A stretch of DNA of 33,893 nucleotides, from positions 1 through 33,893 of the forward strand of contig JALSSW010000184.1 of the NCBI GenBank assembly GCA_026984035.1, in the 5' to 3' direction. The notes beneath the pieces were generated by a model. That model made no database searches and was not told the origin of the DNA. It was given only the letters and a program-made list of their open reading frames with translations. The stretch comes from Planctomycetota bacterium. Lineage in GTDB: Bacteria > Planctomycetota > UBA1135 > GCA-002748355. The position numbers and the translations under genes are program-made. Shown here piece after piece: positions 5,206-30,078 of this stretch (its first letter is position 1; each line of letters begins with the position of its first letter).

Positions 5206-5559
5206 CTATCCTTTCCGCCGCCCTTTAATCTTCTTCCGTTTGTCTTTACAGAAAGGAACAAACACCAAGATTAGGGCCCCAAAAACCATAAGGGAAAAGG
5301 CTACTCTTTTGGAATGCACCAAATAGCTCTCGGGCATCTCCGAGAGGGCAAGCGCAACCTGGTTTTCATTGGGCTGCAAAAAGAAGGTCGCATACCCAAT
5401 CTGGCGGAAAACGAAGAAGGTCGAATTCACCTCTTCGCGCATGAATTTGGCAGTCTTTACCTGGCCAAAGAGGAGAAGGCCGGTCCCGACGAACAAACCG
5501 GACATGAACAGAAGAAAGCCTCGAACCAGATGAAGGTAATGTTTGGGGATGGGGATCAT
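5206..5559 (-). CDS. Small two-helix membrane protein, unknown function
   Basis: I do not recognise this 117-residue protein. It has two hydrophobic segments, at about residues 9-31 and 86-104, separated by a roughly 55-residue hydrophilic stretch. It ends in a very basic tail (KDKRKKIKGRRKG). This predicts both termini in the cytoplasm and a short outer loop. It is the last gene of the minus-strand run containing the two PilT-family ATPases, 68 bases after the second one, and converges with the anti-sigma gene at 8 bases. A membrane partner for the ATPases is possible but unproven. The ribosome-binding site is weak. Confidence 0.65.
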   Translation of the reverse strand: MIPIPKHYLHLVRGFLLFMSGLFVGTGLLLFGQVKTAKFMREEVNSTFFVFRQIGYATFFLQPNENQVALALSEMPESYLVHSKRVAFSLMVFGALILVFVPFCKDKRKKIKGRRKG

Positions 5560-5627: not shown

Positions 5628-6695
5628 TCAGACTCCCACAGGACTTGCAATGCGCCCTTCGAATCGGCGTCGATCCCCTGCAAAAGTTGCGGCGGTTTCA
5701 GGGCTGACCAGCTTCCTCGTCACTAGAGAATATAAGGCCTGATCCAAAGTACACATCCCAACGCCTCGGCTCTTTTCCATCAAAGCTCCAAGGGCATCAA
5801 AGTTCCCTTCCCCAATAACCTCTCGGATTTCCGGAGTTGCCATAAGAGTCTCGATCGCCGGGATCTTTCCCGTTCCATAGGCTCGATCCAAGAGGACTTG
5901 ACCAAAAGCTGCTGAGAGAGTCTGGGACAAACGTTTCCGAAAACTGTCCCTGAGTTCCGGCCGAATCATATCTTCCATCTTGCAGAGGCTCTGCATCGAA
6001 GAGCCGGAATGAATGGCAGCTATCACCAAAAAGCCCGACTCCGCTGCAGAGAGGACTTCCAAAACAGTTTCTTCACAATCCAAATCCGCGACGACAAGAA
6101 TATCCGGACCAAGGCTTCGTGAGAGAGCCACGCCTTCGGCCAAGCTGGAAATATGGACTCCAACCTCAAGCTGTTGCACAATCCCAAAACCCTCTTCATG
6201 TCGATATTCGATAGGGTCCTCCAGGAAAACCACATGGCGGGAACGCTGTTTACGAAGTTCTGCAACAAGAGAGTGTAGGGTTGTGGACTTCCCTGAACCG
6301 ACGGGACCAGTGAAAAGGAGTAAGCCCGATTCCAAGGCCATAAATTCACTGAGAAAAACAGGGAGTCCGAGTGTCTCGGGATCCGGAACACAGTCGGGAA
6401 GCTCCCTAAGCACGAGCAAGATGCCTTCCAATGTCTGGCTAAGGTTGGCCCGAAACTTTGAATTCCCTGATTCAAGTAAAAAAGAGTGACTCCCCTCTCT
6501 TTCCAAATTTTCCCACTGGGATTCCTTGAGACACCCATTGAAGGCCCCCATCAGGGATTCCTTCGAAATCGGCTCTATCTCCGAGGGGATCAGCTTTCCC
6601 TCAATTCGGAAGAGAGGAACCGCCCCTTCCCGGAGAAAAACCGCCGTGGCTCCAGTCGCTTCGATCTTTTCATGAATTCTTTCGAGAATCGTCAC
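5628..6695 (-). CDS. PilT-family secretion/pilus ATPase with altered Walker B
   Basis: This 355-residue protein matches PilT-type hexameric ATPases that drive type IV pilus retraction or related filament machines. The N-terminal PAS-like domain (1-100) precedes the RecA-like core. Walker A is GPVGSGKS (130-137), the Asp box is EDPIEY (159-164), and the His box keeps its histidine (AAIHSG, His229). The Walker B region is divergent. Where PilT has LVGEMRD, this protein has VVADLDC, so the catalytic Glu is replaced by Asp204 and the Arg-Asp pair is lost. The start is GTG, with GAGGAGG 5-6 bases upstream and overlapping the stop codon of the preceding ATPase gene, which points to translational coupling. 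Confidence 0.88.
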   Translation of the reverse strand: MTILERIHEKIEATGATAVFLREGAVPLFRIEGKLIPSEIEPISKESLMGAFNGCLKESQWENLEREGSHSFLLESGNSKFRANLSQTLEGILLVLRELPDCVPDPETLGLPVFLSEFMALESGLLLFTGPVGSGKSTTLHSLVAELRKQRSRHVVFLEDPIEYRHEEGFGIVQQLEVGVHISSLAEGVALSRSLGPDILVVADLDCEETVLEVLSAAESGFLVIAAIHSGSSMQSLCKMEDMIRPELRDSFRKRLSQTLSAAFGQVLLDRAYGTGKIPAIETLMATPEIREVIGEGNFDALGALMEKSRGVGMCTLDQALYSLVTRKLVSPETAATFAGDRRRFEGRIASPVGV

Positions 6696-6704
6696 GTTTC
6701 CTCC

Positions 6705-7994
6705 TCAGCGCACAGCCTTTAACATGCGGGGGCAGTCCATAGCGCGAGAGATCGCTTCATCCACATCAATACGATCCTCCTCAACCAGATCCATCAAGTT
6801 CTCATCCAACGACTTGCCGGTTTCTTGATCCCCAAGATTTAAAAGGAGGACTAGGTTTTCGAAATCTCCTTTTTCAAGAGCTGCCGATGCATCAGCATCC
6901 ATGCGTAGCTCCTCTCGAGTCAGGATTAAACTTTTGCGGTCCCTGGAAGGAATGAGCTCCTGTTGGACCACCGCGAGAAGAGTAGATGCCAAACTTTTTT
7001 GCACGGGAGCCCTTCTTGCGGGAGAAAAACTGCCAACGATCGACTTTAGGGTTCTTACAGTTCCGGTCCCCCGGACTGCCGCAATGACCAGTTTCCCCAT
7101 CTCGGCTGCCTGTAAAGCCACTTCCATTGCATCAGATCCATTGAGTTCATCGAGGACCAGGATGTCAGCATCGGATCTTAGGGCAGCCCTCAGAGCCTTG
7201 GCCAACCCATTCCCTTTCTCATCAAAAAGCTTTGTTGTTACCAGGCTTCTCTCCCCCCTGAGACAGAACTCCCCATGGGAGGTCAAAACTTGGATATGCA
7301 ACCCTGTTTGTTTAGAGAGATAATGGACCATGGACGCAAGCGTCGTTGTTTTCCCCGAACCGGATCTTCCTGAAATCAGGAATAGGCCGTTTTTTTCTAA
7401 TTGCCCCAGGTGCCAAGGACCATATCCCAGATTCGTAAGAGTAGGGATCTCTGAAGGGAACAAACGAAGAACCGCCGAAATCCCTTTGCTATCGTGGAAG
7501 GCATTGATTCTGGCCCAAAAACCGCTTTCCAGTTGCATCCGACACTGGATAAAGCCCTTCCCCTCGAAGATCTCCTTTTCTTCTTCACTCAAAACAGTAT
7601 CCAAAAAACCTTCCATCCACGCCTGAGTCAAAGGAAGTGCAAATAGTTTACTGAGCCTCCCCCCCAAACGAACAAAGGGGGGCTGAGCGGTGCCAAGGAG
7701 CAAATCTGTGACTTCCAAAGAAAGGGAGCGATGCAACAACTCTTGCAAGGTCGGGATTCTCCCATTATGGGTTTCGCCCAGAATGCGCTCCTCCTCGATC
7801 CGCTCTCGCCGGCGCTCCTGGACATCCAGGACAAGCTTGAGCACATTTTCGTGAATCAAGCCCTCTTCGAGGATGATCTGCCCTAAAGGCTTTGTATTCC
7901 CTCCAAGGAACTGAAGCTGAAGACAACGGTCAATGTCCTCTTTTCCAACGAATTTAGTCTCGAGAAGAATGATCCCGAAACGAGTATCTTCCAT
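6705..7994 (-). CDS. GspE/PilT-family ATPase lacking Asp and His boxes
   Basis: This 429-residue protein is a second ATPase of the same superfamily. Residues 1-62 form a GspE/MshE-type N-terminal helical domain (FGIILLETKFV, then KPLGQIILEEGLI), which often binds a membrane platform or c-di-GMP. After a linker comes a PilT-like N-domain (about 85-195) and the RecA core. Walker A is GRSGSGKT (209-216). Walker B keeps a DE pair (ILVLDELN, Asp282-Glu283). The Asp box is lost (TSHGE replaces EDPIE) and the His box is lost (AAVRGT, Arg308 where His is expected). GGAGG lies about 6 bases before the ATG. It is cotranscribed with the PilT-like gene, 9 bases away. Confidence 0.85.
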   Translation of the reverse strand: MEDTRFGIILLETKFVGKEDIDRCLQLQFLGGNTKPLGQIILEEGLIHENVLKLVLDVQERRRERIEEERILGETHNGRIPTLQELLHRSLSLEVTDLLLGTAQPPFVRLGGRLSKLFALPLTQAWMEGFLDTVLSEEEKEIFEGKGFIQCRMQLESGFWARINAFHDSKGISAVLRLFPSEIPTLTNLGYGPWHLGQLEKNGLFLISGRSGSGKTTTLASMVHYLSKQTGLHIQVLTSHGEFCLRGERSLVTTKLFDEKGNGLAKALRAALRSDADILVLDELNGSDAMEVALQAAEMGKLVIAAVRGTGTVRTLKSIVGSFSPARRAPVQKSLASTLLAVVQQELIPSRDRKSLILTREELRMDADASAALEKGDFENLVLLLNLGDQETGKSLDENLMDLVEEDRIDVDEAISRAMDCPRMLKAVR

Positions 7995-8051: not shown

Positions 8052-8594
8052 CTAAAACTTGGCCAAGGATTTCAAGTCTTCAGATTTAAGGGAAATCCCA
8101 AGGAGGGCTCTTTTGTTCCCTGAAGATCCAGAATGCAGAAGGACCAGATCCTTGGAGTCAATTCGGTCCTTTCCAGCCTCAAGGGATAGGCTTGGCCCCT
8201 CCATCAGAATGCGTCCATGGCGAAAAACCCGAACCCTTCCCTTGAGCTGCAGGCCTTCATGCATCCAAATCCCCTTCTCGGCCTCAAAGTTGAGACCTTT
8301 GACCCTCACTCGAACTTCTTCGAATCGAAAATGATTCGGGACGCCGGCGATGACAAGTGGACCTAAAGTGGGCAACTGGGGAAGTCCTCGTTTGGCCTTC
8401 AACCTGACACCTTCGACTCCCAGGAGTTGGAAAGGAACCTCAAGATCATTGATAACTTCCAAATCCCATTTGGAGGTAGGGATCTGTCCCTCTCTGAGCG
8501 CTTTCCGAAGCCAAGCGGAAGAAGAATGGGGCGATTGATATAGCAACAAAACAAAAGCCCAAAGCAATGCCAGGAAGAAACCTGACCGTGCCAT
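8052..8594 (-). CDS. Membrane-anchored LptC-like protein
   Basis: This 180-residue protein has an N-terminal signal anchor (about residues 4-20). A beta-rich periplasmic domain follows whose repeats (FEAEKGIWM, LQLKGRVRV, LMEGPSLSLEAGKDRI) recall LptC/LptA, the jellyroll proteins that carry lipopolysaccharide across the periplasm. Length and layout match LptC (about 190 residues), but similarity is at the level of pattern only. The start codon overlaps the stop codon of the upstream lipoprotein gene in TAATG, so translation is coupled. No lptA or lptB is in view, so an LPS-export role is tentative. It could be another envelope protein with the same fold. Confidence 0.55.
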   Translation of the reverse strand: MARSGFFLALLWAFVLLLYQSPHSSSAWLRKALREGQIPTSKWDLEVINDLEVPFQLLGVEGVRLKAKRGLPQLPTLGPLVIAGVPNHFRFEEVRVRVKGLNFEAEKGIWMHEGLQLKGRVRVFRHGRILMEGPSLSLEAGKDRIDSKDLVLLHSGSSGNKRALLGISLKSEDLKSLAKF

Positions 8595-10714
8595 TAGAAG
8601 ACCATTAGGACCGGACGGGTGCGATCCCCCCCGCTGCGACCACTTCCTGGATCAAAGCCCTGCGAACGAACACGCACAAGCCTTCTCCGTGGACTGCGTC
8701 CAACGCCTGCTTGATTCATCAGGGGGAGAAGAGGAACTCCGATCTCAAGACCACCTTTTCCCAAAGCCACAGCGCAGGGGACTTCAGGATTCCCAACGAC
8801 CCGAAGCATGGCCTTTGCTTGAGTCCCCAAAAGGTTCACAAGGATAGTAAAGGAGACCTTCTTCTCCTTGATTGAGTCCAGATCCCGAACACGGATTTCG
8901 TAAACCCTCGCAATCTTAGGGTGCAGTTTGGGATCTCCATCCCCAAGGTCAATGCGCACAAAGAAATTCCGCGAAGAGATCGCAAGCGCAAAACTCCGGA
9001 GATCCAAGGCTGTTAGATATCCGAAAACGGTAGAATCTCCCACTGGGTCTCGAGGCAATAAAACTTCTGATGAGGTGGGCCAATCCCCGAAAAGGCCATC
9101 CACCAGGATTGTCGCCTTTGTCAACTGGGCACGTGTGGCCAACTCTGCCAGATTGGTTGCTTGATCCTGGGTCATCCCGGGGAAGAGCCCCCCTAGTGTC
9201 GGATCCTTCAGAGACCGGCCCCCCAAGGGAAGGCGGTGATCAAAAGAGGGGAGCAAGCCTCGGAAAGCGATTCCGGAGCCTTCAAAAAACCGTGCTGGAT
9301 CCAAGGAAAACTTGAGAGGAAACCTGCCCAAGGAACGCCGAGAGCCTTCCTTAAAAGCGGAAAACCAGGAATCGAACTCGAACAGAAAAAGATCCCGATC
9401 TTTTTCTCCAAAGCCCTTCCTAAATGCAATTAAGTCATCCCCTTGGTCATCCTCCTCCTTGCGAATCGAAACAAAGGCATCTCTGAAGAGGGAAGCCGCT
9501 TTCAGAAAACCGGCCCTTGCCTTGGACAACTTTGAAGTTCGAAGCTTTCCCAATTGAGGGAACAAGGACAATAACTCTGCAAAACCCTTCCCAGCTCGAA
9601 CTTCATTCCAGAGTTTATTGAGATCAAAATCCAAGTCGTAGGATTCAAGGACATCGAGGGCTGCTCGTAACCCTTCAATGGAAGAAAGAAGGAGCAAGAC
9701 ATCCCCTTCATCAAGCTCCCTTACCCCCCCATAGTTGCTTAAAAAACCCGAAAGGTAAAGAGGTGAACGGAAACCTCCTCCAACCCGGTCCAGCTCATCT
9801 TCCACTCGATCTAAAGCGGGAAGAAAACGTTTTCGAAAAAACTCAAAAACTTCGGAGGCCTTCGGAGGATTCCGCCCTGGTCTCAGTTGTCCGGGCCAGT
9901 CCCCCTTGAGAACCCGCATAAAGAAGGGATTCGCGGAGCGTGGCATCCCCAAGCGATCAAGGGCCTCCCCCACACTATTGATACCTGGCCCTGTATCGGA
10001 TTCGTCATTTACCAATTGTGTCAAAAGGGTGAGTGCTGTGTAAAAATGAGCATCCCCATTGAAGGGATCCGCTTGGAGGGCTTGCCCAAGGAAAATCAAA
10101 GCTTTGTTCAGGGCGGGGGGATCCATCCGCTTCCATAAACCGACAGCTTTCCCCACGAGACCGGCAGAATCTCCGATTCTCCGGGGATTTTTGGAAAGAA
10201 CCACTCGAACCAGGCCGAAGGAATCCGCTTTGGCCTCGAAAAACTTCCGCCGCTGATCCAAACCACCGCCAGGGGAACTGGGGATCCAAATGGGAGGACG
10301 CCCCCCTCCTCGTTTTTTTTGTAAAAGCGCGACAACATCCCGAGGGTCACGAAATCTCGGCATCTTGACAGGAATCCGGATTTGAATTGGTTTTTTCAAG
10401 CGACCGGGATCCGGGGAAACCTCAAAACGAAGTTCAGGTCCAATCGAAGGATTCCCATCCACCGAAGCGCTTTGCCCGCCGGCCATTCGGATGGAAACAA
10501 AACGATCCAGAGCCCCAAAGGGAACAGTGACCTTTACACCTTCGAGTTCTGTTCCAAGAGGACCGATGAGCTCTCCTCCGGAAGGCCCCATAGAACGAGT
10601 CGTAAAACCTGGAGTCCGTGCCCCTCCTCCTCCCCCCCCGCACCCGGACAGGACAAGGAAACCGCCGGCCAGAAGGCTGATCTTGGGAGAACGTAATAAG
10701 GGAATTTTTATCAT
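8594..10714 (-). CDS. Large lipoprotein with ZU5-like and CBM9-like domains
   Basis: This is a 706-residue predicted lipoprotein. The signal peptide ends with lipobox LSGC (Cys25), followed by a Gly-rich linker. Residues about 44-115 look like a ZU5 domain (GGELIGPLGTELEGVKVTVP). Around 195-235 there is a TPR-like helical stretch (FLGQALQADPFNGDAHFYTA). The middle is helical and charged without a recognised family. Residues about 548-690 resemble the CBM9/DOMON-like beta-sandwich (VDGLFGDWP, then FFVRIDLGDGD). It heads the run with the LptC-like protein and the two ATPases. A surface-assembly role is plausible, but I do not know its function. No clear ribosome-binding site precedes the ATG. 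Confidence 0.75.
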   Translation of the reverse strand: MIKIPLLRSPKISLLAGGFLVLSGCGGGGGGARTPGFTTRSMGPSGGELIGPLGTELEGVKVTVPFGALDRFVSIRMAGGQSASVDGNPSIGPELRFEVSPDPGRLKKPIQIRIPVKMPRFRDPRDVVALLQKKRGGGRPPIWIPSSPGGGLDQRRKFFEAKADSFGLVRVVLSKNPRRIGDSAGLVGKAVGLWKRMDPPALNKALIFLGQALQADPFNGDAHFYTALTLLTQLVNDESDTGPGINSVGEALDRLGMPRSANPFFMRVLKGDWPGQLRPGRNPPKASEVFEFFRKRFLPALDRVEDELDRVGGGFRSPLYLSGFLSNYGGVRELDEGDVLLLLSSIEGLRAALDVLESYDLDFDLNKLWNEVRAGKGFAELLSLFPQLGKLRTSKLSKARAGFLKAASLFRDAFVSIRKEEDDQGDDLIAFRKGFGEKDRDLFLFEFDSWFSAFKEGSRRSLGRFPLKFSLDPARFFEGSGIAFRGLLPSFDHRLPLGGRSLKDPTLGGLFPGMTQDQATNLAELATRAQLTKATILVDGLFGDWPTSSEVLLPRDPVGDSTVFGYLTALDLRSFALAISSRNFFVRIDLGDGDPKLHPKIARVYEIRVRDLDSIKEKKVSFTILVNLLGTQAKAMLRVVGNPEVPCAVALGKGGLEIGVPLLPLMNQAGVGRSPRRRLVRVRSQGFDPGSGRSGGDRTRPVLMVF

Positions 10715-19147: not shown

Positions 19148-19903
19148 TCAGAGCTTCGAGGAGGAAGTGGGGGGGAGCAACACCCCCCGGACCTGAGCCA
19201 AGGCCACGAGTCCTTTATAAAAGGCCAAAAAGGCATCTTCTTCCGTACTCTGTTCTCCTTCTTGTCCCTCCAGCCACGCTTCCGCAAGCTTTTCTACTTT
19301 CTGGATCCGCCCATCCTCCAGGCATCGAATTAGAAGGCTTAAGTCCGCCCCTGACTCCTTCCAAAACGGCATCCCTTCTTGATCCCGGGAACAGAGCAAG
19401 TCCTCCTTCCCCCTCCAGAGCCGGACCCAAGGAGCAAGCCTCACCGAAGAACCTAGAAGATCCCCAACCGTTCCTCCCAGGTCCTGCAAATCATCCGGAT
19501 GAAGAATCTTTCCTTCTCCATTTTCGGCATAAAAGCATTGGAGCTCCAAAAGCATGCGCTCCATCCGTCCTTTCAAGCCAGCCTTGCCCTCAAACATTTC
19601 CTCTCGATAAGCGAGAACCCAAGAGAGAAAACGCTCCGCCAACTCCCGCGAACTCTGAGTCCGAGGTGGGTTTTCCCGAAGCATCTCCAACAGGAGGCCA
19701 TCGAGATCAAGCTCCTCACCCTTGACCAAAGCCTCCAGGGTCTCCTCAAAAGCAAAAGAAAGCTGACCGGAGGCTGCACCAAGAATCAACTGCTGATACA
19801 AATCGATCCTGTCCCGCTCAGGAAGAAATCGTGAGGCTTCGGAGGAAAGCTCTCTCCCCAGGATGGCATCCCGAAAGGCCAATTCAATCTCTTCCAGATT
19901 CAT
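19148..19903 (-). CDS. bufC: DUF2063-like partner of DUF692 maturase (BufC/MbnC-type)
   Basis: This 251-residue protein occupies the place of the DUF2063 partner in bufferin, methanobactin and HvfABC loci, where it pairs with the DUF692 enzyme and presents the precursor peptide. The N-terminal half fits the family loosely: an opening helix (EIELAFRDAILG), ERDRIDLYQQLI, a PPRTQSSRELAERFLSWV segment, and LLELQCFYAE. The family's usual helical signatures are eroded, so this is a divergent member, and the call rests partly on position. Its ATG overlaps the stop of the DUF692 gene in ATGA, indicating coupled translation. The C-terminal half has no recognised motif. Confidence 0.68.
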   Translation of the reverse strand: MNLEEIELAFRDAILGRELSSEASRFLPERDRIDLYQQLILGAASGQLSFAFEETLEALVKGEELDLDGLLLEMLRENPPRTQSSRELAERFLSWVLAYREEMFEGKAGLKGRMERMLLELQCFYAENGEGKILHPDDLQDLGGTVGDLLGSSVRLAPWVRLWRGKEDLLCSRDQEGMPFWKESGADLSLLIRCLEDGRIQKVEKLAEAWLEGQEGEQSTEEDAFLAFYKGLVALAQVRGVLLPPTSSSKL

Positions 19904-20799
19904 ACAGATTTCTCCACGGCATTTTTCTTGGTAAAATTTTCCTTGGAAAAACGACCCTCGGGGAAAGTCTGGTCTAAAACAGCTCCGACTTTCCGGAGTT
20001 CTGGAAGCAACTCCTCCAAGTCCGGGATGTTGAAATCCCTCTCAAGGAGGATTGAGATCGGTCGAGAACACCTGCTCACCGCATCTTCATAAAGTTCCCA
20101 GACGGCATCAATGACCGGGGCCCCGTGGGTATCCAAAAGAAGCCGCCCCTCCATTTCATGGCCCGCCATATGCATTTGCCCTACACGATCAAAGGGAATC
20201 CCATCGAGATATTCCCTTGAGGAAAACCCATGGTTCCAAGCATTGACAAAGATATTGTTCACATCGAGCAACATCCCACAGTCTCCCTCCTCCAGAACCA
20301 GGCGAACAAATTCCCATTCGGGCATCCGCCCATCCACCTCATATTCGAAGTAGCAGCTCACATTTTCAACGAGGAATGGCAGCTCCAAGAAGTCCTGAAT
20401 CATCCGAACTCTTCCCGCGACATGGGCAGCCGCTTCTTCGGTATAGGGAAGAGGAAGAAGCTCTCCGAGATATTGGTCTCCCACCCCTGTAAAGCAGAGA
20501 TGATCAGAAATCCAGAGTCCTCCCAGCTCGTGGACATAAGCCTTAAGCCGTTTTAAATAATCAAAATCAAGAGGGTCCGTAGAGCCAAGGTTTAGGGAAA
20601 TTCCATGGAAGGCAACTGGATATCGTTCGGCCGCTTCCCTTACCTGCCGGTCCAGCAAACCTCCCCTATCGATGGAATTTTCGGGGAGGATCTCCAACCA
20701 ATCAACTTCCGAACATCCTTCGAGCAGATCTTCAACATGTTTCCTACGAAAACCAAGACCTGCCCCTAATCCTGGGCACCGCAAATGTTGTTCCTTCAT
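19900..20799 (-). CDS. bufB: DUF692 multinuclear iron maturase of RiPP precursor (BufB/HvfB/MbnB family)
   Basis: This 299-residue TIM-barrel enzyme belongs to DUF692 (MbnB/TglH/ChrH), whose members use two or three iron ions and oxygen to modify cysteines of peptides, for example to oxazolone-thioamide or thiooxazole groups. Metal-ligand motifs run in order: HGISLNLGS (His65), WISDHLCF (Asp99, His100), LVENVS (Glu145), LLDVNNI (Asp179, Asn182), HMAGH (His210, His214), DTHGAPV (Asp223, His225) and LLERDFNIP (Glu253). Length is normal. GAGG lies 7 bases before the ATG. The substrate is very likely the Cys-Gly-Gly repeat peptide encoded upstream. A terminator in the 253-base gap should lower its expression relative to the precursor. 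Confidence 0.93.
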   Translation of the reverse strand: MKEQHLRCPGLGAGLGFRRKHVEDLLEGCSEVDWLEILPENSIDRGGLLDRQVREAAERYPVAFHGISLNLGSTDPLDFDYLKRLKAYVHELGGLWISDHLCFTGVGDQYLGELLPLPYTEEAAAHVAGRVRMIQDFLELPFLVENVSCYFEYEVDGRMPEWEFVRLVLEEGDCGMLLDVNNIFVNAWNHGFSSREYLDGIPFDRVGQMHMAGHEMEGRLLLDTHGAPVIDAVWELYEDAVSRCSRPISILLERDFNIPDLEELLPELRKVGAVLDQTFPEGRFSKENFTKKNAVEKSV

Positions 20800-21052: not shown

Positions 21053-21331
21053 CTATTTTTTGCCGCCGCAACCTTTGGCTCCACCACAACCTTTGGCCCC
21101 ACCACAACTTTTTGAGCCGTCTTTTTTCTTGGCTCCACCGCAACCCTTAGCTCCACCACAGCCTTTTGAGCCGCCGCAACCTTTTTTTCCCCCACAGCTC
21201 TTTTGGCTCATGTCGCTCTTTGAGCTTTTCTGGCTCGGACTACAGGATGTGAAGGAAAATGTCGCGAGAGCACCGGTCACAAGCGCAGCGGTTGAAAGAT
21301 TTCTTAGGGTAGAGAATGCCTTCTTTTTCAT
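21053..21331 (-). CDS. bufA: Bufferin-type RiPP precursor with Cys-Gly-Gly repeats
   Basis: This 92-residue peptide is the likely substrate of the DUF692 enzyme downstream. An export signal (about 1-28) ends in FTSC, possibly a lipobox with Cys30. The mature part is a low-complexity array of K-G/S-C-G-G units. Cysteines stand at 46, 52, 58, 64, then 76, 82 and 88, a strict six-residue period in which the unit expected at 70 is replaced by KKDGSK. Bufferins and HvfA-type peptides are exported, have cysteines modified to sulfur heterocycles, and bind copper. Copper binding here is inferred from that. AGGAA lies about 7 bases before the ATG. It is the first gene of its operon. Confidence 0.82.
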   Translation of the reverse strand: MKKKAFSTLRNLSTAALVTGALATFSFTSCSPSQKSSKSDMSQKSCGGKKGCGGSKGCGGAKGCGGAKKKDGSKSCGGAKGCGGAKGCGGKK

Positions 21332-22414: not shown

Positions 22415-25400
22415 CTATCTCGACAGCAAGATTTTTTCCCGGAAGATCAGGTCATCCAAACCATTACTATCCAAATCCCCGACCAAAACTGACCCCGGAC
22501 TCCAGTTCTTTAGAGAAGAAACGACTGGGAAAACATAAGCAGACCCTAAAGATCCGCCGCCTAAACCTTTGAACAAGGTAAAGCGCATGGGACTGTCAGG
22601 AGAAAGCAGGAGAGATCCAAGAAAAAGAATATCAACGATGCCATCTCCATCGAAATCTCCAGAAAGGATCTCCAAGGGGGTCCCAAGGGGCCGAAGTTTA
22701 GGGGAAATCACTTCTGCAAAAGGAGTCTTTGAATGAGGAAGTTGATTCAAGAACACCCGTAAAAAGGGATCATCCTCAGAGTAAGTCACCAAATCTAAAT
22801 CCGAGTCTCCATCCATATCCACCATCAGCGGAGCTGAAGGGGAAACCCCGATCTCAAGAGAAGAAAAAACTGGATCCGTGGCGAACAGGAGGCGATCTTT
22901 AATGGAACCGCCATTCCCTTTTACCCAAACCGTTTTGCGGAAATGCAAGAAACGCCCGGACACCCAACAGAGATCGATCCCGGGATCTTGGCGAGGAAAA
23001 AGCCTCCCCGCAGAAAGAAGATTCATCCAGTTAATGTTGACAGGATCCGGGACACTGAATTCTGTAGCATACTTTCCGGAGAGAACCACCCGGAAAGGAA
23101 AGGTCTTTCCAGAGGCCACGCCCTTGCGCACTAGCCCCAGAGCAAAAGTCCGCTGCTCAACCCCTTGCACAATCCCCGAAGTCACGAAAACACCCACCAA
23201 ATCCAATAACCCATCTCCATTAAGATCGGCGGGAAAAAAGCGAGACCCTTCCAAAAAAGTATCCGTGGAATTCATATTAACAAGATAAGGCTTGATCCCC
23301 CCAGGAAGCACCACCGGTGAGGCGCTACCTGGCGGCACATAGGCAATGGTTCCAGTCTTTTGCAAATACATCAGACCTGGTGGATCTCCAAGCCTCTCTG
23401 AAATATTGACCATGGAAGAGCTAATGAGAGAGTTCACTGCCCAGGAATCTTCGTTTTTATATTTGGCAGGACCGAGGATGCGAATCCGGTTGAAAGTGTT
23501 TTTTCCCAAAGCATAGAAAACGGGTTTTGTACTTGGCTTTAAGTTTTTAGGAGCCGTCACCCGAACTGCATGGGAAGTTATGGGAAGCCTGATCTCTCTG
23601 TCTTGCAATTTCCCACCCAACAAGGGGAAGGTGGAAAGGACCGAGAAGAACCGACCATCCACAAACTCCTCATGAAGCAAGGCGAGAGCGGTATCTCCAC
23701 TATCCAACTGAACGGAGAGAAGGTTAATGGGGTTAAAAACCCCATCTAGGGAAGGAAAACTACTTTTCTCCAGCTTCGGTGCTCCTTGGCCCAAAAGCAC
23801 AGCCTTAAACTCAAGGCCTAGATCTCCCTGAAGGATAAGAAAAAGCCGTTGAACATTCTCAGAACCCCGAGGAGCTAATATTTCTAATTTGTGGACTCCT
23901 ATTTTCGGAAGGGACAGGAAATCTCCGGCTCCGGGGAGAGCGAACCCTCCAATCGGGACGGTATTGCGGATCGGTAAGAACCGCAAATCATTCCCACCTT
24001 TGGGTTGCGCAACCAAGAGCAAATCGGGATGAGACTTTCCCTTGGGAGTAAAGGCTTCGAGCCCCACAAGCTCATCGATCTTTCCCAACCATTTATTTTT
24101 TGTTCCCACAGATAAAACCACTTTGGGATAAATCAGCCCAGCCCGGCTTCCCTTTGCAACCCAAAGCCGGAAGGGTTGGGCCTTTTCCATGAGGGCCAAA
24201 TCGACATAGCCATCGCCATCAAAGTCCCCGGAAACTTCGAATCCACCCGCCCAATTTTTTGGAAGGTCAAAAAAGATAGGGCTTGCCTTGGTGACGTCCC
24301 CCAGGCGGAGGGCGAGGGCAACGATGCTTGATGTTTTTTGAACTTGAACAACAAAATCAGAAACCCCATCCTTGTTAAAGTCAGCCGCCAAACCTTTGGA
24401 TTTCGGCTCCAAAGGAGAGGAAATCCCCATGGGAAAAGAGGAAAGAAGGTGGTTCGGATCCCCGGTCCCATACTGGAGAGCATGGACAAAATTGCTAAGT
24501 GGAATGGGTGCACCGGAAAGAAGCAAGAGGTCATCGAGACTGTTCCCGCCAAAGGAACCCGCCATCAGCCCAACTGGTTTTTCAACACCTGGGAACTGAG
24601 CTCCATTTCCAGTGGAAATGGTCCCACCAATTTGGCGATAAAGCCCAAAACCTGAGGGAAGGAAGAGCCCATAACCGGCCAGCCTTCCCGCCCGCAGCAG
24701 AACCGCAAGCTCATCCCCCTTTCTTTCTGCGGGAGTACGGAAAAAATGCCCCTCTTGAACATCGAATCCAGCACTATCCAAAAGCGAGGATAACCCACCA
24801 AACCTGGGTTGCGAGATTCCATACCGTGGAGGCCCTAAAAGGAAACTCCCACTCTTTGGCTCAAGCGAAACCTTTGACTGTTCATTTGCGGGCTGCTTGA
24901 TGAATTGCCTCAATACCAACCTTGAGACTCCCGGCCTTCCATCAGGTGAAGGAGGTAGAAAGAAAAAGATTCGAGTGTCATCTGATCGCAAGCGCAGGAT
25001 CGATTCGGAAGGCACCACCCTCTTCTTTCCATTTTTTTCAATCGACAATTCGATCTCATCAAAAAGATACTGGATCGTTGTTTTTGTTCGATCCACAGGG
25101 ACGAGGCCTTCTCCCACCAAAACCACCAAGGCTCCCCCCCTTACAGGAGCCACTCCCGGACCTACGCCATAAAGGGTCGGGGTATAAAGGATTTTCGAAG
25201 GGTCAGATCTCCCCCCAAACTTATCCTTAAGAATCAAATAACCAATGCCTGGAAAACGGGTCCCGGGAATTGCGACTTTAATGTCTGCACTGGTCTCGCC
25301 CCTCCTTTTGAACTCAAGAATCGATGCTCGAAGGCGCCGGAAGAAAACCTTCCCGTTCCCTCCTGCCCGATCCCATTGATAAACCTCCACCGAAAGATCC

Positions 25401-26044
25401 CCGGGGGTTTTTGCGTGAAGAAAATCCACTGGGATATTGTAGACAGAGCGGCCATCCACCCGGACTGGGAGGGCCTTGCCTCCATTTTTAGGAGGATCCG
25501 GTAAGACATTGGCCAAGTTGAATTGGGGAAAACGGTAAAAGTAAAAGGGAACCGGTCCCGCAAGGGGCTCTCCATTTACGGTCACGGTTAAAGCGACCTC
25601 AATATCTTGAGGTAAAAGGTTTTTGGCGAGAACCTTCTGCCAAAAAGGCTGTGGGTTCACCTGAAAAAACAGGTCCACAGAAGAGCTCCCCGAAAGCAGA
25701 GATGCGGTGGTAAGGGTCTCTTCCCGAACGCCCAGGGTTTCACTATTCAGGATAACCTTAAACTGCCCTCCCTTGTCCCTGAATGCCTCCGGGAGATTCA
25801 AGACCCGCAGCTTCCGAATCCCCACATCCTTATCGGAGGGAAGGTTGAATTGAGACAACTGAAGGACCCTGAGAGGAGCAAAATTGTCACCCGTACTTAT
25901 GTCAATGGAAGGCGGACGCAGTTCACCCGTCCTACCGGAGGATCCAGCCCCCCTTCCTCCGGCAAAGACACCCGCGACTACACCGCTTCCACAGGAGGAG
26001 AATAGAAAAATGAGCCCCAAGGCTAGATGGTATCGTCGCATCAT
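22415..26044 (-). CDS. Giant FG-GAP/VCBS repeat lipoprotein
   Basis: This 1209-residue protein is a predicted surface lipoprotein. The signal peptide ends in FSSC (Cys18), followed by a Gly/Ser linker. The N-terminal third contains beta-sandwich regions, including an IPT/TIG-like part around 290-400 (LYGVGPGVAPVRGGALVVLV). The C-terminal two thirds hold FG-GAP-type calcium-binding loops of the form DxDGDGxxD: DFNKDGVSD, DFDGDGYVD, DLNGDGLLD, DMDGDSDLD, DFDGDGIVD and DLDSNGLDD. These suggest a beta-propeller used for adhesion or ligand binding. It has no visible catalytic domain. The ATG doublet lacks a clear ribosome-binding site. I infer surface location from the lipobox and repeats. Confidence 0.85.
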   Translation of the reverse strand: MMRRYHLALGLIFLFSSCGSGVVAGVFAGGRGAGSSGRTGELRPPSIDISTGDNFAPLRVLQLSQFNLPSDKDVGIRKLRVLNLPEAFRDKGGQFKVILNSETLGVREETLTTASLLSGSSSVDLFFQVNPQPFWQKVLAKNLLPQDIEVALTVTVNGEPLAGPVPFYFYRFPQFNLANVLPDPPKNGGKALPVRVDGRSVYNIPVDFLHAKTPGDLSVEVYQWDRAGGNGKVFFRRLRASILEFKRRGETSADIKVAIPGTRFPGIGYLILKDKFGGRSDPSKILYTPTLYGVGPGVAPVRGGALVVLVGEGLVPVDRTKTTIQYLFDEIELSIEKNGKKRVVPSESILRLRSDDTRIFFFLPPSPDGRPGVSRLVLRQFIKQPANEQSKVSLEPKSGSFLLGPPRYGISQPRFGGLSSLLDSAGFDVQEGHFFRTPAERKGDELAVLLRAGRLAGYGLFLPSGFGLYRQIGGTISTGNGAQFPGVEKPVGLMAGSFGGNSLDDLLLLSGAPIPLSNFVHALQYGTGDPNHLLSSFPMGISSPLEPKSKGLAADFNKDGVSDFVVQVQKTSSIVALALRLGDVTKASPIFFDLPKNWAGGFEVSGDFDGDGYVDLALMEKAQPFRLWVAKGSRAGLIYPKVVLSVGTKNKWLGKIDELVGLEAFTPKGKSHPDLLLVAQPKGGNDLRFLPIRNTVPIGGFALPGAGDFLSLPKIGVHKLEILAPRGSENVQRLFLILQGDLGLEFKAVLLGQGAPKLEKSSFPSLDGVFNPINLLSVQLDSGDTALALLHEEFVDGRFFSVLSTFPLLGGKLQDREIRLPITSHAVRVTAPKNLKPSTKPVFYALGKNTFNRIRILGPAKYKNEDSWAVNSLISSSMVNISERLGDPPGLMYLQKTGTIAYVPPGSASPVVLPGGIKPYLVNMNSTDTFLEGSRFFPADLNGDGLLDLVGVFVTSGIVQGVEQRTFALGLVRKGVASGKTFPFRVVLSGKYATEFSVPDPVNINWMNLLSAGRLFPRQDPGIDLCWVSGRFLHFRKTVWVKGNGGSIKDRLLFATDPVFSSLEIGVSPSAPLMVDMDGDSDLDLVTYSEDDPFLRVFLNQLPHSKTPFAEVISPKLRPLGTPLEILSGDFDGDGIVDILFLGSLLLSPDSPMRFTLFKGLGGGSLGSAYVFPVVSSLKNWSPGSVLVGDLDSNGLDDLIFREKILLSR

Positions 26045-27079: not shown

Positions 27080-28840
27080 ATGAATCACAGACAAAAAGAG
27101 CTGTTTCCAATTTTTGGTGCGGAGCCTGTAAAGGAACCTACCCCACAGGAATCAGCCGCACAGGAACAAGCCATACAGATGACTGAGACAAAAAAGAAAA
27201 AAACAAAAAGAAGAGCCACGGCCGAGAGCATGGCCAAGAAACAACGCGAGATTTCGGTCTCTGAGTTCTTCACAAAAAACAGACATCTCCTGGGTTTCGA
27301 CAATCCCCGAAAGGCCCTGCTCACCGGAGTCAAAGAAGCCGTGGACAATAGCCTCGACGCATGCGAAGAGGCCGGGATTCTCCCGGATATCCTTGTAGAA
27401 ATCCGCCCCATTCCCAGCCAAGAACACCGATTCACCATGATTGTCGAGGACAATGGCCCTGGCATTGTTAAGGCCCAAATCCCCAATATCTTTGGAAAGC
27501 TCCTCTATGGCTCCAAATTCCATCGCCTTAAACAGAGCCGCGGACAACAAGGGATAGGGATCTCGGCTGCGGGAATGTATGGGCAACTCACTACTGGAAA
27601 TCCAGTTCGGATCATTTCCAGGACGGGAAGCCGAAGGCCGGCTCACCGCTTTGAGGTCCGGATCAACACAACAAAAAACAAGCCCGAGTTCACCGATGAA
27701 GAATGCGAATGGGATCGCCCCCATGGAACCCGTGTCGAAATTGACATGCAAGCTGAGTTTCGAAAGGGCTCACGTTCCGTGGGGGAGTACCTTAAACAGA
27801 CTGCAGTAGCTAACCCACATGTCCGCATCGTGTATCGTTTTCCCGGAAACAATGAAGTCTTTTATGACCGCGCTGTTACGGAGCTTCCTCCCGAAACCAA
27901 GGAGATTCGGCCCCATCCCCATGGGGTTGAACTAGGCCTTCTAATTAAGCTGCTCAGCGACAGCAAAGAACGCACCCTAAGTGCATTCCTCCAAAAAGAA
28001 TTCAGCCGTGTCTCTGCGGCAGTGGCCAAAAAAATCTGTGAAGGCGCAAAACTCTCTTCCCGTGCCCACCCCAAGAGGATCGCCCGCCAAGAGGCGGATG
28101 CCCTTCATCAATCGATCCAAAGCACCAAGATCATGGCCCCGCCCACAAACTGCATTGCGCCCATCGGCGAGGATGTCCTCTTGGCTGGACTTAAAAAAGA
28201 GATCAAGGCCGATTTCTACGTGGCTGCAACCCGTCCCCCCTCCGTATACCGAGGCAACCCATTCTTGGTCGAAGCCGCCCTCGCCTTCGGACGTGAAGGG
28301 GATACCATGGAGGTAACCGAGACGGGCAAGATCGTCGCGCGAAAGAAAGCAGCCTCAGCCGATACAGAGCTTCTTGGGAATGCAGATGAAGCCATTCGCC
28401 TGGTTCGCTTTGCCAACCGCGTCCCTCTTCAATACCAGCAAAGTGCCTGCTCCATCTCTAAGGGAGTCATTAGTATCAACTGGCGTTCGTATGGAATGCA
28501 GCAACCCAGAGGGGCACTTCCCATCGGCCCCATGGTCTTGGTGGTTCATATTGCCTCAGTTTGGGTTCCCTTCACTTCCGAAAGCAAGGAGGCAATCGCT
28601 TCCTATCCCGAAATCCTGAAGGAGATCAAGCTAGCTGTCCAAGAATGCGGTCGCAAGCTGGGAACCCACATCCGCAAAGGCAAACGGATTGCCACAGAAC
28701 ATCGCAAGCGATCCTATATCGAGCTTTACCTCCCACATATCGGGATCGGACTCCAAGAGATCTTGAACTTTGATGACAAGACGCGGGATGAAGATGTAGA
28801 AATCCTTCGCGGGATCCTGGAAAGGAGCCGCAAGATCTAG
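27080..28840 (+). CDS. top6B: DNA topoisomerase VI subunit B
   Basis: This 586-residue protein is the GHKL ATPase subunit of type IIB topoisomerase VI, which passes one duplex through another to relax supercoils and unlink DNA. ATP-site motifs are [11 protein letters not shown] (catalytic Glu86, Asn90), VEDNGPGI (Asp124) and [18 protein letters not shown] (152-169). A helix-two-turn-helix region (about 285-370) and the transducer domain follow ([20 protein letters not shown]). The N-terminus carries about 55 extra Lys/Glu-rich residues, so M34 or M51 are possible starts. AGGA precedes the ATG at 27080. The partner subunit A gene begins 77 bases downstream, completing an A2B2 enzyme. Confidence 0.95.
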
Positions 28841-28882
28841 AAGAGGAATCCTTACTAGAAAATAGCGGGAAACAGAAAACCC

Positions 28883-28899
28883 CGAGGAAAGCCCCCTCG
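28883..28899 (+). promoter_or_regulatory. Small hairpin just before top6A
   Basis: A perfect 5-bp stem CGAGG/CCTCG (28883-28887 with 28895-28899) and a seven-A run lie 18 bases before the top6A start. They could influence its translation, which has only a weak ribosome-binding site. Evidence is limited to the inverted repeat. Confidence 0.2.
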
Positions 28900-28917
28900 A
28901 AAAAAACGGAACCATCA

Positions 28918-30078
28918 ATGGCAACAAAACGAAGAAAAGTCCGCAAAGCAAGATCACGTCCTCTTGAAGCTCTCGACAAAAGAACCCTCAAATGTATCAA
29001 GGATTCCGCAATTAAGATCCACGAGACGATTCAAAAGAAAAAGAAGCCGGAGATCGTCTTTCCCGTTCGTTCTCTCAAGAACGTGAAGTACGAAAAAAAG
29101 GTCGGCTACTTCCAGCTTGGGCGCGGTCGAAAGAGGCGTGACCTGACTTTCAATTCCGTGAAAGCCTTTGCCCAAATGCTCCGAATGATGGCGGCTTCTA
29201 TGGAGTTGATCGAAACTGATGACACCGCAACCAAGAGGGAGGCCTATTACAACTCCAAAAACTGGGGAGAGGCTAAGTTTAAGGAGCAAACCGAGTCCGA
29301 TACGGTCATGGATGACATCGAAGCCATGTTCAGCCTCCAGAAGATTTCCCGCGAACAACTCCGATTTAAGCCTGCTGAACATGGAGGATCGGTTGCGGGC
29401 AATCTCATCGTCGTCGACAGGGATCTGGAGACCGGTGAACGGGAAGAAATAGACTGCACACGAATGGGCTCATCCGCCTGGCGCATTCCCGCGCGAGTAG
29501 AGCATCTAGACTTCAAGACAAAAGCGGACTTCATCCTCGCCATTGAGACCAACGGAATGTATGAGCGACTTTCCTCCCACAAGTTTTGGAGGACCCACAA
29601 CTGCATCCTTGTTGAAATGGGAGGAGTCCCCACTCGAGCCTGTCGGCGATTCCTCCGCCTCCTCAGCGAAAAAAAGAAGATTCCCGTCTATGCCTTTGTC
29701 GACTGCGACCCCTACGGAATCGCTAATATTTATCGCTCTCTCAAGGTGGGATCTGGCAACGCTGCTCACATCAACAATTTTTTCTGTGTCCCTGGGGCAA
29801 AATTCTTAGGGGTGACCCCACAGGACATCGTGGATTACGGACTCAGAGAGAAGGACGCGGTCCATCCCCTCAAAGAGGTGGACATCAAGCGGGCCAAGGA
29901 TGCCCTCAAAAATGATCCTTTTTTCCAAAGCCACCGCCCATGGAAAAAAGCCTTAGAACAACTTCTCAAAATGGGGATCCGCGCAGAGCAACAGGCTTTT
30001 GCAGCCTACGATCTTAATTTTGTCACCCGCGAATACCTTCCTGAGAAGTTGAAGAATCCCAGTTCCTTCCTACCCTGA
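28918..30078 (+). CDS. top6A: DNA topoisomerase VI subunit A (Spo11 family)
   Basis: This 386-residue protein is the DNA-cleaving subunit of topoisomerase VI, homologous to Spo11. The 5Y-CAP domain holds the cleaving tyrosine in TKREAYYNS, most likely Tyr111. The Toprim domain shows Glu210 (LAIETNGMYERL) and the DxD pair Asp262/Asp264 (VDCDPYGI), which bind magnesium. Length is close to archaeal subunit A (about 370-390). A basic N-terminus (KRRKVRKARSR) is extra. With all catalytic residues in both subunits, the pair looks functional. Archaea often have the two genes adjacent as here, with B before A. Confidence 0.95.
   Translation: MATKRRKVRKARSRPLEALDKRTLKCIKDSAIKIHETIQKKKKPEIVFPVRSLKNVKYEKKVGYFQLGRGRKRRDLTFNSVKAFAQMLRMMAASMELIETDDTATKREAYYNSKNWGEAKFKEQTESDTVMDDIEAMFSLQKISREQLRFKPAEHGGSVAGNLIVVDRDLETGEREEIDCTRMGSSAWRIPARVEHLDFKTKADFILAIETNGMYERLSSHKFWRTHNCILVEMGGVPTRACRRFLRLLSEKKKIPVYAFVDCDPYGIANIYRSLKVGSGNAAHINNFFCVPGAKFLGVTPQDIVDYGLREKDAVHPLKEVDIKRAKDALKNDPFFQSHRPWKKALEQLLKMGIRAEQQAFAAYDLNFVTREYLPEKLKNPSSFLP

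Follow-up and report, generated by a model that had tools for sequence, protein, structure and literature searches.

An ancient tandem of PilT-family ATPases, whose first member (A) has gained an N-terminal domain of the MshE type, is encoded in the Planctomycetota DNA analysed here (the window: 33,893 nucleotides, contig C184 of genome G000, whose assembly of 3.8 Mb in 210 contigs is about 90% complete). In the class to which this genome belongs, the ATP site of A has eroded under continued purifying selection, and the second member (B) keeps its nucleotide-binding residues. The best way to understand the pair, to which we give an even chance of being right, is that A is a degenerate, probably c-di-GMP-responsive regulatory subunit of the PilT-like ATPase B.

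Both open reading frames lie on the minus strand, where the sequence-only reading had placed them. Gene A (6705..7994) starts with ATG and encodes 429 aa, an MshE-type four-helix-bundle-like N-terminal segment followed by a degenerate PilT-like ATPase; gene B (5628..6695) starts with GTG and encodes 355 aa, a PilT-like ATPase with an altered HIS box. The two proteins are only about 28% identical. Their junction (6693..6710, minus strand) holds the stop of A, a Shine-Dalgarno-like GAGGAGG and the start of B: the TGA of A is followed after 9 nt by the GTG of B, and a good ribosome-binding site for B, TGAGGAGG, overlaps the A stop. This layout is consistent with translational coupling, as had been proposed; in relatives the two genes are separated by 9, 3 or 2 nt or overlap by 1-4 nt. 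Among named relatives the Planctomycetota MAG HyVt-539 comes closest, with a protein 77% identical to A.

The family assignment is to PilT. TIGR01420 is the best NCBIfam match of both proteins (A: E 2.6e-60, 204.5 bits, residues 83-419 aligned to profile positions 2-339 of 343; B: E 5.6e-73, 246.1 bits, residues 5-342 aligned to 3-341), at scores below the curated cut-off of 319.1 bits in each case. Homology to the two-domain PilT core extends over its full length in both, by TIGR01420 and by phmmer against solved PilT. Tandem proteins from outside the class score higher (A of G345, 417.9; B of G342 and G173, 436.7 and 429.2). The window's own genome yields 11 T2SSE matches. Four of them are canonical PilT-like proteins in which every motif is present; the two of these that were scored reach 480.2 and 476.2 bits. 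At another locus of this genome (L047, contig C190), a PilT gene is flanked by two PilB/GspE-like genes.

The tandem of A and B is of long standing and occurs widely, in the window's class and in other classes of Planctomycetota. A search of 154 genomes of the window's class with a 17-row A profile found full-length orthologs in 35, those of G142, G150 and G053 being partial matches; the 35 belong to two families, f1 (6 of 8 genomes) and f6 (29 of 34), and the other families have none (0/112). B lies directly downstream in 34 of the 35; in G142 the contig ends. Outside the class, 15 more genomes of a 392-genome phylum sample carry an A-like protein with the N-terminal domain, followed by a PilT-type gene in 14 of them (a contig end cuts two of these); in G267 no second PilT-type gene was found after A. 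A second profile led to 15 further loci, one of which (L142) repeats the place of another (L103), and 12 of the 15 have two adjacent PilT-type genes. A tree of 109 proteins, built by a quick search with SH-aLRT support and no bootstrap, puts 47 A rows on one side of a branch (support 96) and the B rows, together with two f23 second genes, on one side of another (97); class A and class B are each supported at 100. The tree leaves out four wrong-strand rows (L029, L032, L033 and L035) and the fragmentary rows G436_B, G216_B, G142_A, G150_A, G136_B and G053_A, which enter the motif counts where the column is present. The tandem is more than a chance arrangement, because the same asymmetry between its members recurs in 34 class genomes. 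A literature search of titles and the beginnings of abstracts met no such tandem, and no MshEN-bearing PilT, in Planctomycetota, which is not proof of absence.

In the window, motif positions were read from an alignment with the canonical PilTs of the same genome; all motifs lie on the minus strand. Walker A of A (GRSGSGKT, G209-T216; 7347..7370) keeps K215. The Asp box is lost (TSHGEF, 7266..7283), T238 replacing the Glu, and so is the HIS box (7071..7094), with K301 and R308 in place of both His. To this extent the original description of A holds. It had also credited A with keeping a Walker B Asp-Glu (D282-E283, 7146..7151); the Asp is really an unusual gain, because that position is typically Gly in PilT-like ATPases, in which the Asp-box Glu is reported to hold magnesium (PMC5424180). 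Among class A proteins an Asp at this site is confined to G000, G001 and G002; the A proteins of these genomes are without the Asp-box Glu, have the Lys and the catalytic Glu, and make up three of the five Lys-keeping class A proteins. Given the usual Gly and the role of the Asp-box Glu, D282 may restore the classical form of Walker B and so offset the lost Asp box, possibly by a swap of magnesium ligands, a suggestion drawn from three genomes. With Lys, Glu and a regained Walker B Asp all present, A of the window's genus may still hydrolyse ATP.

In B, Walker A (GPVGSGKS, 6285..6308) keeps K136 and the Asp box (EDPIEY, 6204..6221) keeps E159; D204 stands at the catalytic Glu (6084..6086), and D206-C207 where Arg-Asp is expected. 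These points had been read correctly. The HIS box (6009..6032) had been listed as kept and is so only in part: the second His is there (H229) and the first has given way to F222, which had gone unmentioned. Both arginines are retained in window A and in window B.

How far these features reach was examined in the relatives. Counted by automatic alignment of MAG sequences, with related genomes not independent of each other, the Walker A Lys of A is present in 5/35 class proteins and 15/15 outside, the Asp-box Glu in 0/35 and 15/15, the catalytic Glu in 7/35 and 13/15, the first HIS-box His in 2/35 and 15/15, and the second in 3/35 and 13/15; all five are intact in 13 of the 15 outside A. For B, the Lys is found in 30/34 class proteins and 14/14 outside, the Asp-box Glu in 34/34 and 13/13, the catalytic Glu in 25/34 and 12/12, the second HIS-box His in 8/34 and 12/12, and the first in none at all (0/34 and 0/12; 0/46 overall). 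The full set of these five residues occurs in 0/35 class A and 0/34 class B. Placed on the tree, the changes amount to one loss of the A Asp box, two losses of the A Lys and eight losses of the B catalytic Glu. From the counts and these changes, B was marked long ago by the loss of its first His, and loss of the Asp box is a mark of class A; D204 of window B is young, because the sister species G001 has Glu. Many f6 A proteins are without both arginines.

The losses in A are thus lineage-wide, as a check on persistence across the 35 class genomes makes plain. The sequence-only reading held that homologs with full motifs would indicate local mutation; such homologs do exist beyond the class, where 13 of the 15 are complete, but local mutation is ruled out as the cause, since the same losses are found throughout the 35 class genomes.

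Related erosion is seen elsewhere. Five A proteins outside the class (L120-L124: G216, G295, G322, G266 and G334) have all lost the Arg-Asp pair, and those of G216 and G334 have lost the catalytic Glu and second His as well; decay in these five is partial and apparently separate from that of the class. Second genes of tandem loci across Planctomycetota (L087-L104, L139-L153) have also lost the first HIS-box His.

One account of such uneven losses is that A and B form a mixed hexamer, each subunit supplying the catalytic parts that the other lacks. The window lends itself to it: A has the catalytic Glu where B has Asp, the Asp and HIS boxes lost from A are wholly or partly present in B, and the genes are coupled. 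The relatives speak against it. Of the 34 pairs, 7 are without the catalytic Glu in both proteins, and 4 are without the Walker A Lys in both; in G001 the Glu is present in both. Complementary losses are peculiar to the window, and the claim that each type completes the other is not supported. The geometry of the site is a further obstacle: the Lys of Walker A, the Glu of the Asp box, the catalytic Glu and the HIS box all belong to the C-terminal domain of one chain, so a partner cannot lend these residues, and mixing cannot mend two defective sites. In PilB and PilT rings, Walker A and the Asp-box Glu are described as acting within one packing unit, to which the neighbour adds only arginines, as in the PilB structure (PMC5424180), and a threonine, as is proposed for PilT (PMC6858323). 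Nor is a mixed ring what would be assumed by default, as PilT and PilU of V. cholerae are reported to form separate homohexamers (PMC6821130). Catalytic complementation is rejected on the pair counts and the site geometry, and a mixed hexamer of this kind is very unlikely. AlphaFold2, run with two rows per protein (window and L039), gave unusable models (pLDDT 45.0 and 43.9).

The V. cholerae example suggests another arrangement, in which A and B are separate homohexamers that cooperate at one pilus, both hydrolysing ATP with altered motifs. PilT and PilU are reported to form independent rings that interact (PMC6821130), and the window proteins could be cast in these parts, A keeping the Lys, the Glu and both arginines, and B the Lys and Asp-box Glu. 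The rest of the class fits poorly: A has lost the Walker A Lys in 30 of 35 genomes and the Asp-box Glu in all, and both arginines are gone as well from many f6 A proteins. We regard this arrangement as unlikely.

Progressive motif loss in A and partial loss in B might also be taken for a locus on its way to becoming a pair of pseudogenes. Both genes are, however, under purifying selection. In four species pairs, the first with synonymous sites near saturation, dN/dS of A is 0.06, 0.15, 0.29 and 0.16; the corresponding values of B are 0.04, 0.12, 0.38 and 0.19. The frames are open, and the tandem has been kept in 35 genomes of two families. Pseudogene decay is rejected on dN/dS, and hardly any likelihood is left to it. 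Constraint is uneven along A: between G000 and G001, 5 of 68 N-terminal residues have changed, against 94 of 361 elsewhere (Fisher p 0.0005). The N-terminal segment is also the best-kept part between G006 and G007 (93%), and is not clearly so in two f6 pairs.

This segment, absent from the earlier description of A, resembles the c-di-GMP receptor domain of MshE. Residues 5-59 (7818..7982, minus strand) comprise two 24-residue motifs similar to those of MshEN, set 7 residues apart. The profile NF053729 matches window A at E 2.9e-5 with a score of 23.8, below its cut-off of 38; it matches 16/17 class A and 15/15 outside A, and the A proteins of G047 (39.4) and G345 (46.6) exceed the cut-off. Measured against the MshEN consensus of two 24-residue motifs by the relaxed pattern given in PMC5013675, motif II of window A conforms, and motif I departs from it in lacking the Gly; 7 residues separate the motifs, as against 5, and motif II begins with Pro. 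Across class A, the Arg, Gly and Gln of motif I are each present in 34/34 (G150 is cut by its contig), and the Gln of motif II in 33/34. Like the extension ATPases of the MshE/PilB type (in which the domain is called MshEN, GSPII or N1D), A is a secretion ATPase with two such motifs at its N-terminal end, and the A of G345 exceeds the profile cut-off; it differs from them in that its core is PilT-like and not PilB-like, that this core is preceded by no more than the four-helix part, of about 60 residues, and that the spacer is longer.

Departures from the motifs are also reported for Thermus PilF, an assembly ATPase that, unlike A, has three GSPII domains. Its GSPII-B is reported to bind c-di-GMP with Lys or Leu in place of the motif arginines, and GSPII-C to do so with a Pro opening motif II (PMC11731258); in a GSPII-A construct, a Ser at this opening position abolished binding (PMC12002112). 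Binding of c-di-GMP by A is plausible on these comparisons. The motif I Arg, which has been gained in the class (34/34, against 0/15 outside), was considered as a binding switch and set aside, as GSPII-B binding with Lys or Leu (PMC11731258) means that the gain proves little. The window's own genome has four GGDEF matches over the cut-off.

The regulatory reading brings these features together. A would be a degenerate ATPase, weakly active or inactive, that works as a regulatory subunit: it would sense c-di-GMP through the N-terminal domain and gate B, whether the two share a ring or a ring of A docks on B. B would bind ATP, hydrolyse it, probably slowly, and act on a type IV pilus-like platform in the manner of PilT or PilU. 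Of the two options offered at the outset, a mixed hexamer or one motor and one regulator, the second is favoured, since A decays throughout the lineage and B keeps the nucleotide-binding set. The GGDEF matches and the T2SSF platform genes of the window's genome also fit this reading. Against it count the sub-threshold c-di-GMP motif of window A, with its missing motif I Gly, longer spacer and initial Pro of motif II, the less clear conservation of the N-terminal segment in the two f6 pairs, and the distance of the tandem from T4P genes among the matches listed. B itself also tells against it, as the second HIS-box His is gone from 26 of the 34 class proteins. The H229A substitution is reported to abolish twitching in P. 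aeruginosa PilT (PMC6858323), so that B may not be a motor either; f6 B, in which this His is mostly lost, may hydrolyse ATP slowly or serve as a switch that binds ATP. The more specific proposal, that a PilT-type motor subunit has become a pseudo-ATPase which senses c-di-GMP and either forms part of its tandem partner's ring or docks on that ring, is tentative, and we lean somewhat against it.

Genomic context bears on whether the pair serves a pilus at all. It may have left pilus work for some other envelope process, the motif losses marking the new role. T2SSF is present in all 23 genomes searched, including platform genes in the window's own genome, but in these 23 genomes none lies beside the tandem among the matches listed, the nearest (in G003) being about 20 kb away; four canonical PilT-like genes elsewhere in the window's genome could also point this way, as could the company that the tandem keeps in f1. 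Upstream in the window lie a 180-aa single-TM protein (8052..8594, minus strand), linked to the tandem within f1 only, and a 706-aa lipoprotein-like protein (8594..10714, minus strand) with no Pfam match, relatives of which precede the tandem in G001, G002 and G056; the gene itself is seen before the tandem in G000, G001 and partly in G002. Downstream, a 117-aa two-TM protein (5206..5559, minus strand) adjoins the tandem in f1 genomes. Most f6 genomes have other genes on the flanks, which tells against this reading, and a conserved operon partner was sought and none is common across families. Genes for pilT and pilU are, moreover, often located away from other pilus genes. A non-pilus role is accordingly rather improbable.

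Other genes of the window were also noted. At 27080-30078 (plus strand) a Topo-VIb transducer gene and a TOP6A/Spo11 Toprim gene adjoin, so that DNA topoisomerase VI is encoded with its two subunits in a Planctomycetota genome. At 19148-20799 (minus strand) the gene for a RiPP-modifying enzyme of the MbnB/TglH/ChrH type adjoins a DUF2063-like gene; a 92-aa ORF nearby (21053-21331, minus strand) is a possible candidate for its precursor. A 1209-aa protein with FG-GAP repeats is encoded at 22415-26044 (minus strand).

Among known systems, one of the nearest is the PilT-PilU pair of Pseudomonas and Vibrio, which drives pilus retraction. The genes pilT and pilU are neighbours, as are A and B, and all four proteins have the two-domain PilT-like core. 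PilT and PilU are described as cooperating PilT-family ATPases, one of which depends on the other (PMC6821130). The A-B pair differs in that the first protein, and not the second, is degenerate, in that this first protein has the MshE-type N-terminal domain, and in that A and B occupy branches of their own, to which the genome's canonical PilT does not belong.

Action of c-di-GMP on pilus extension ATPases through MshEN domains is known. If a PilT-type protein combined an MshEN-like domain with a dead ATP site, the c-di-GMP signal would reach a retraction-type motor. The series of A proteins would then give natural material for the study of how motor subunits become regulators, and the intact-site tandems of other Planctomycetota a ready ancestral control for assays of binding, ATPase activity and ring mixing. 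If the more specific proposal of a pseudo-ATPase on the partner's ring is true, the tandem would be a second-messenger clutch on a retraction-type motor, with several stages in the loss of an ATP site preserved within one class.
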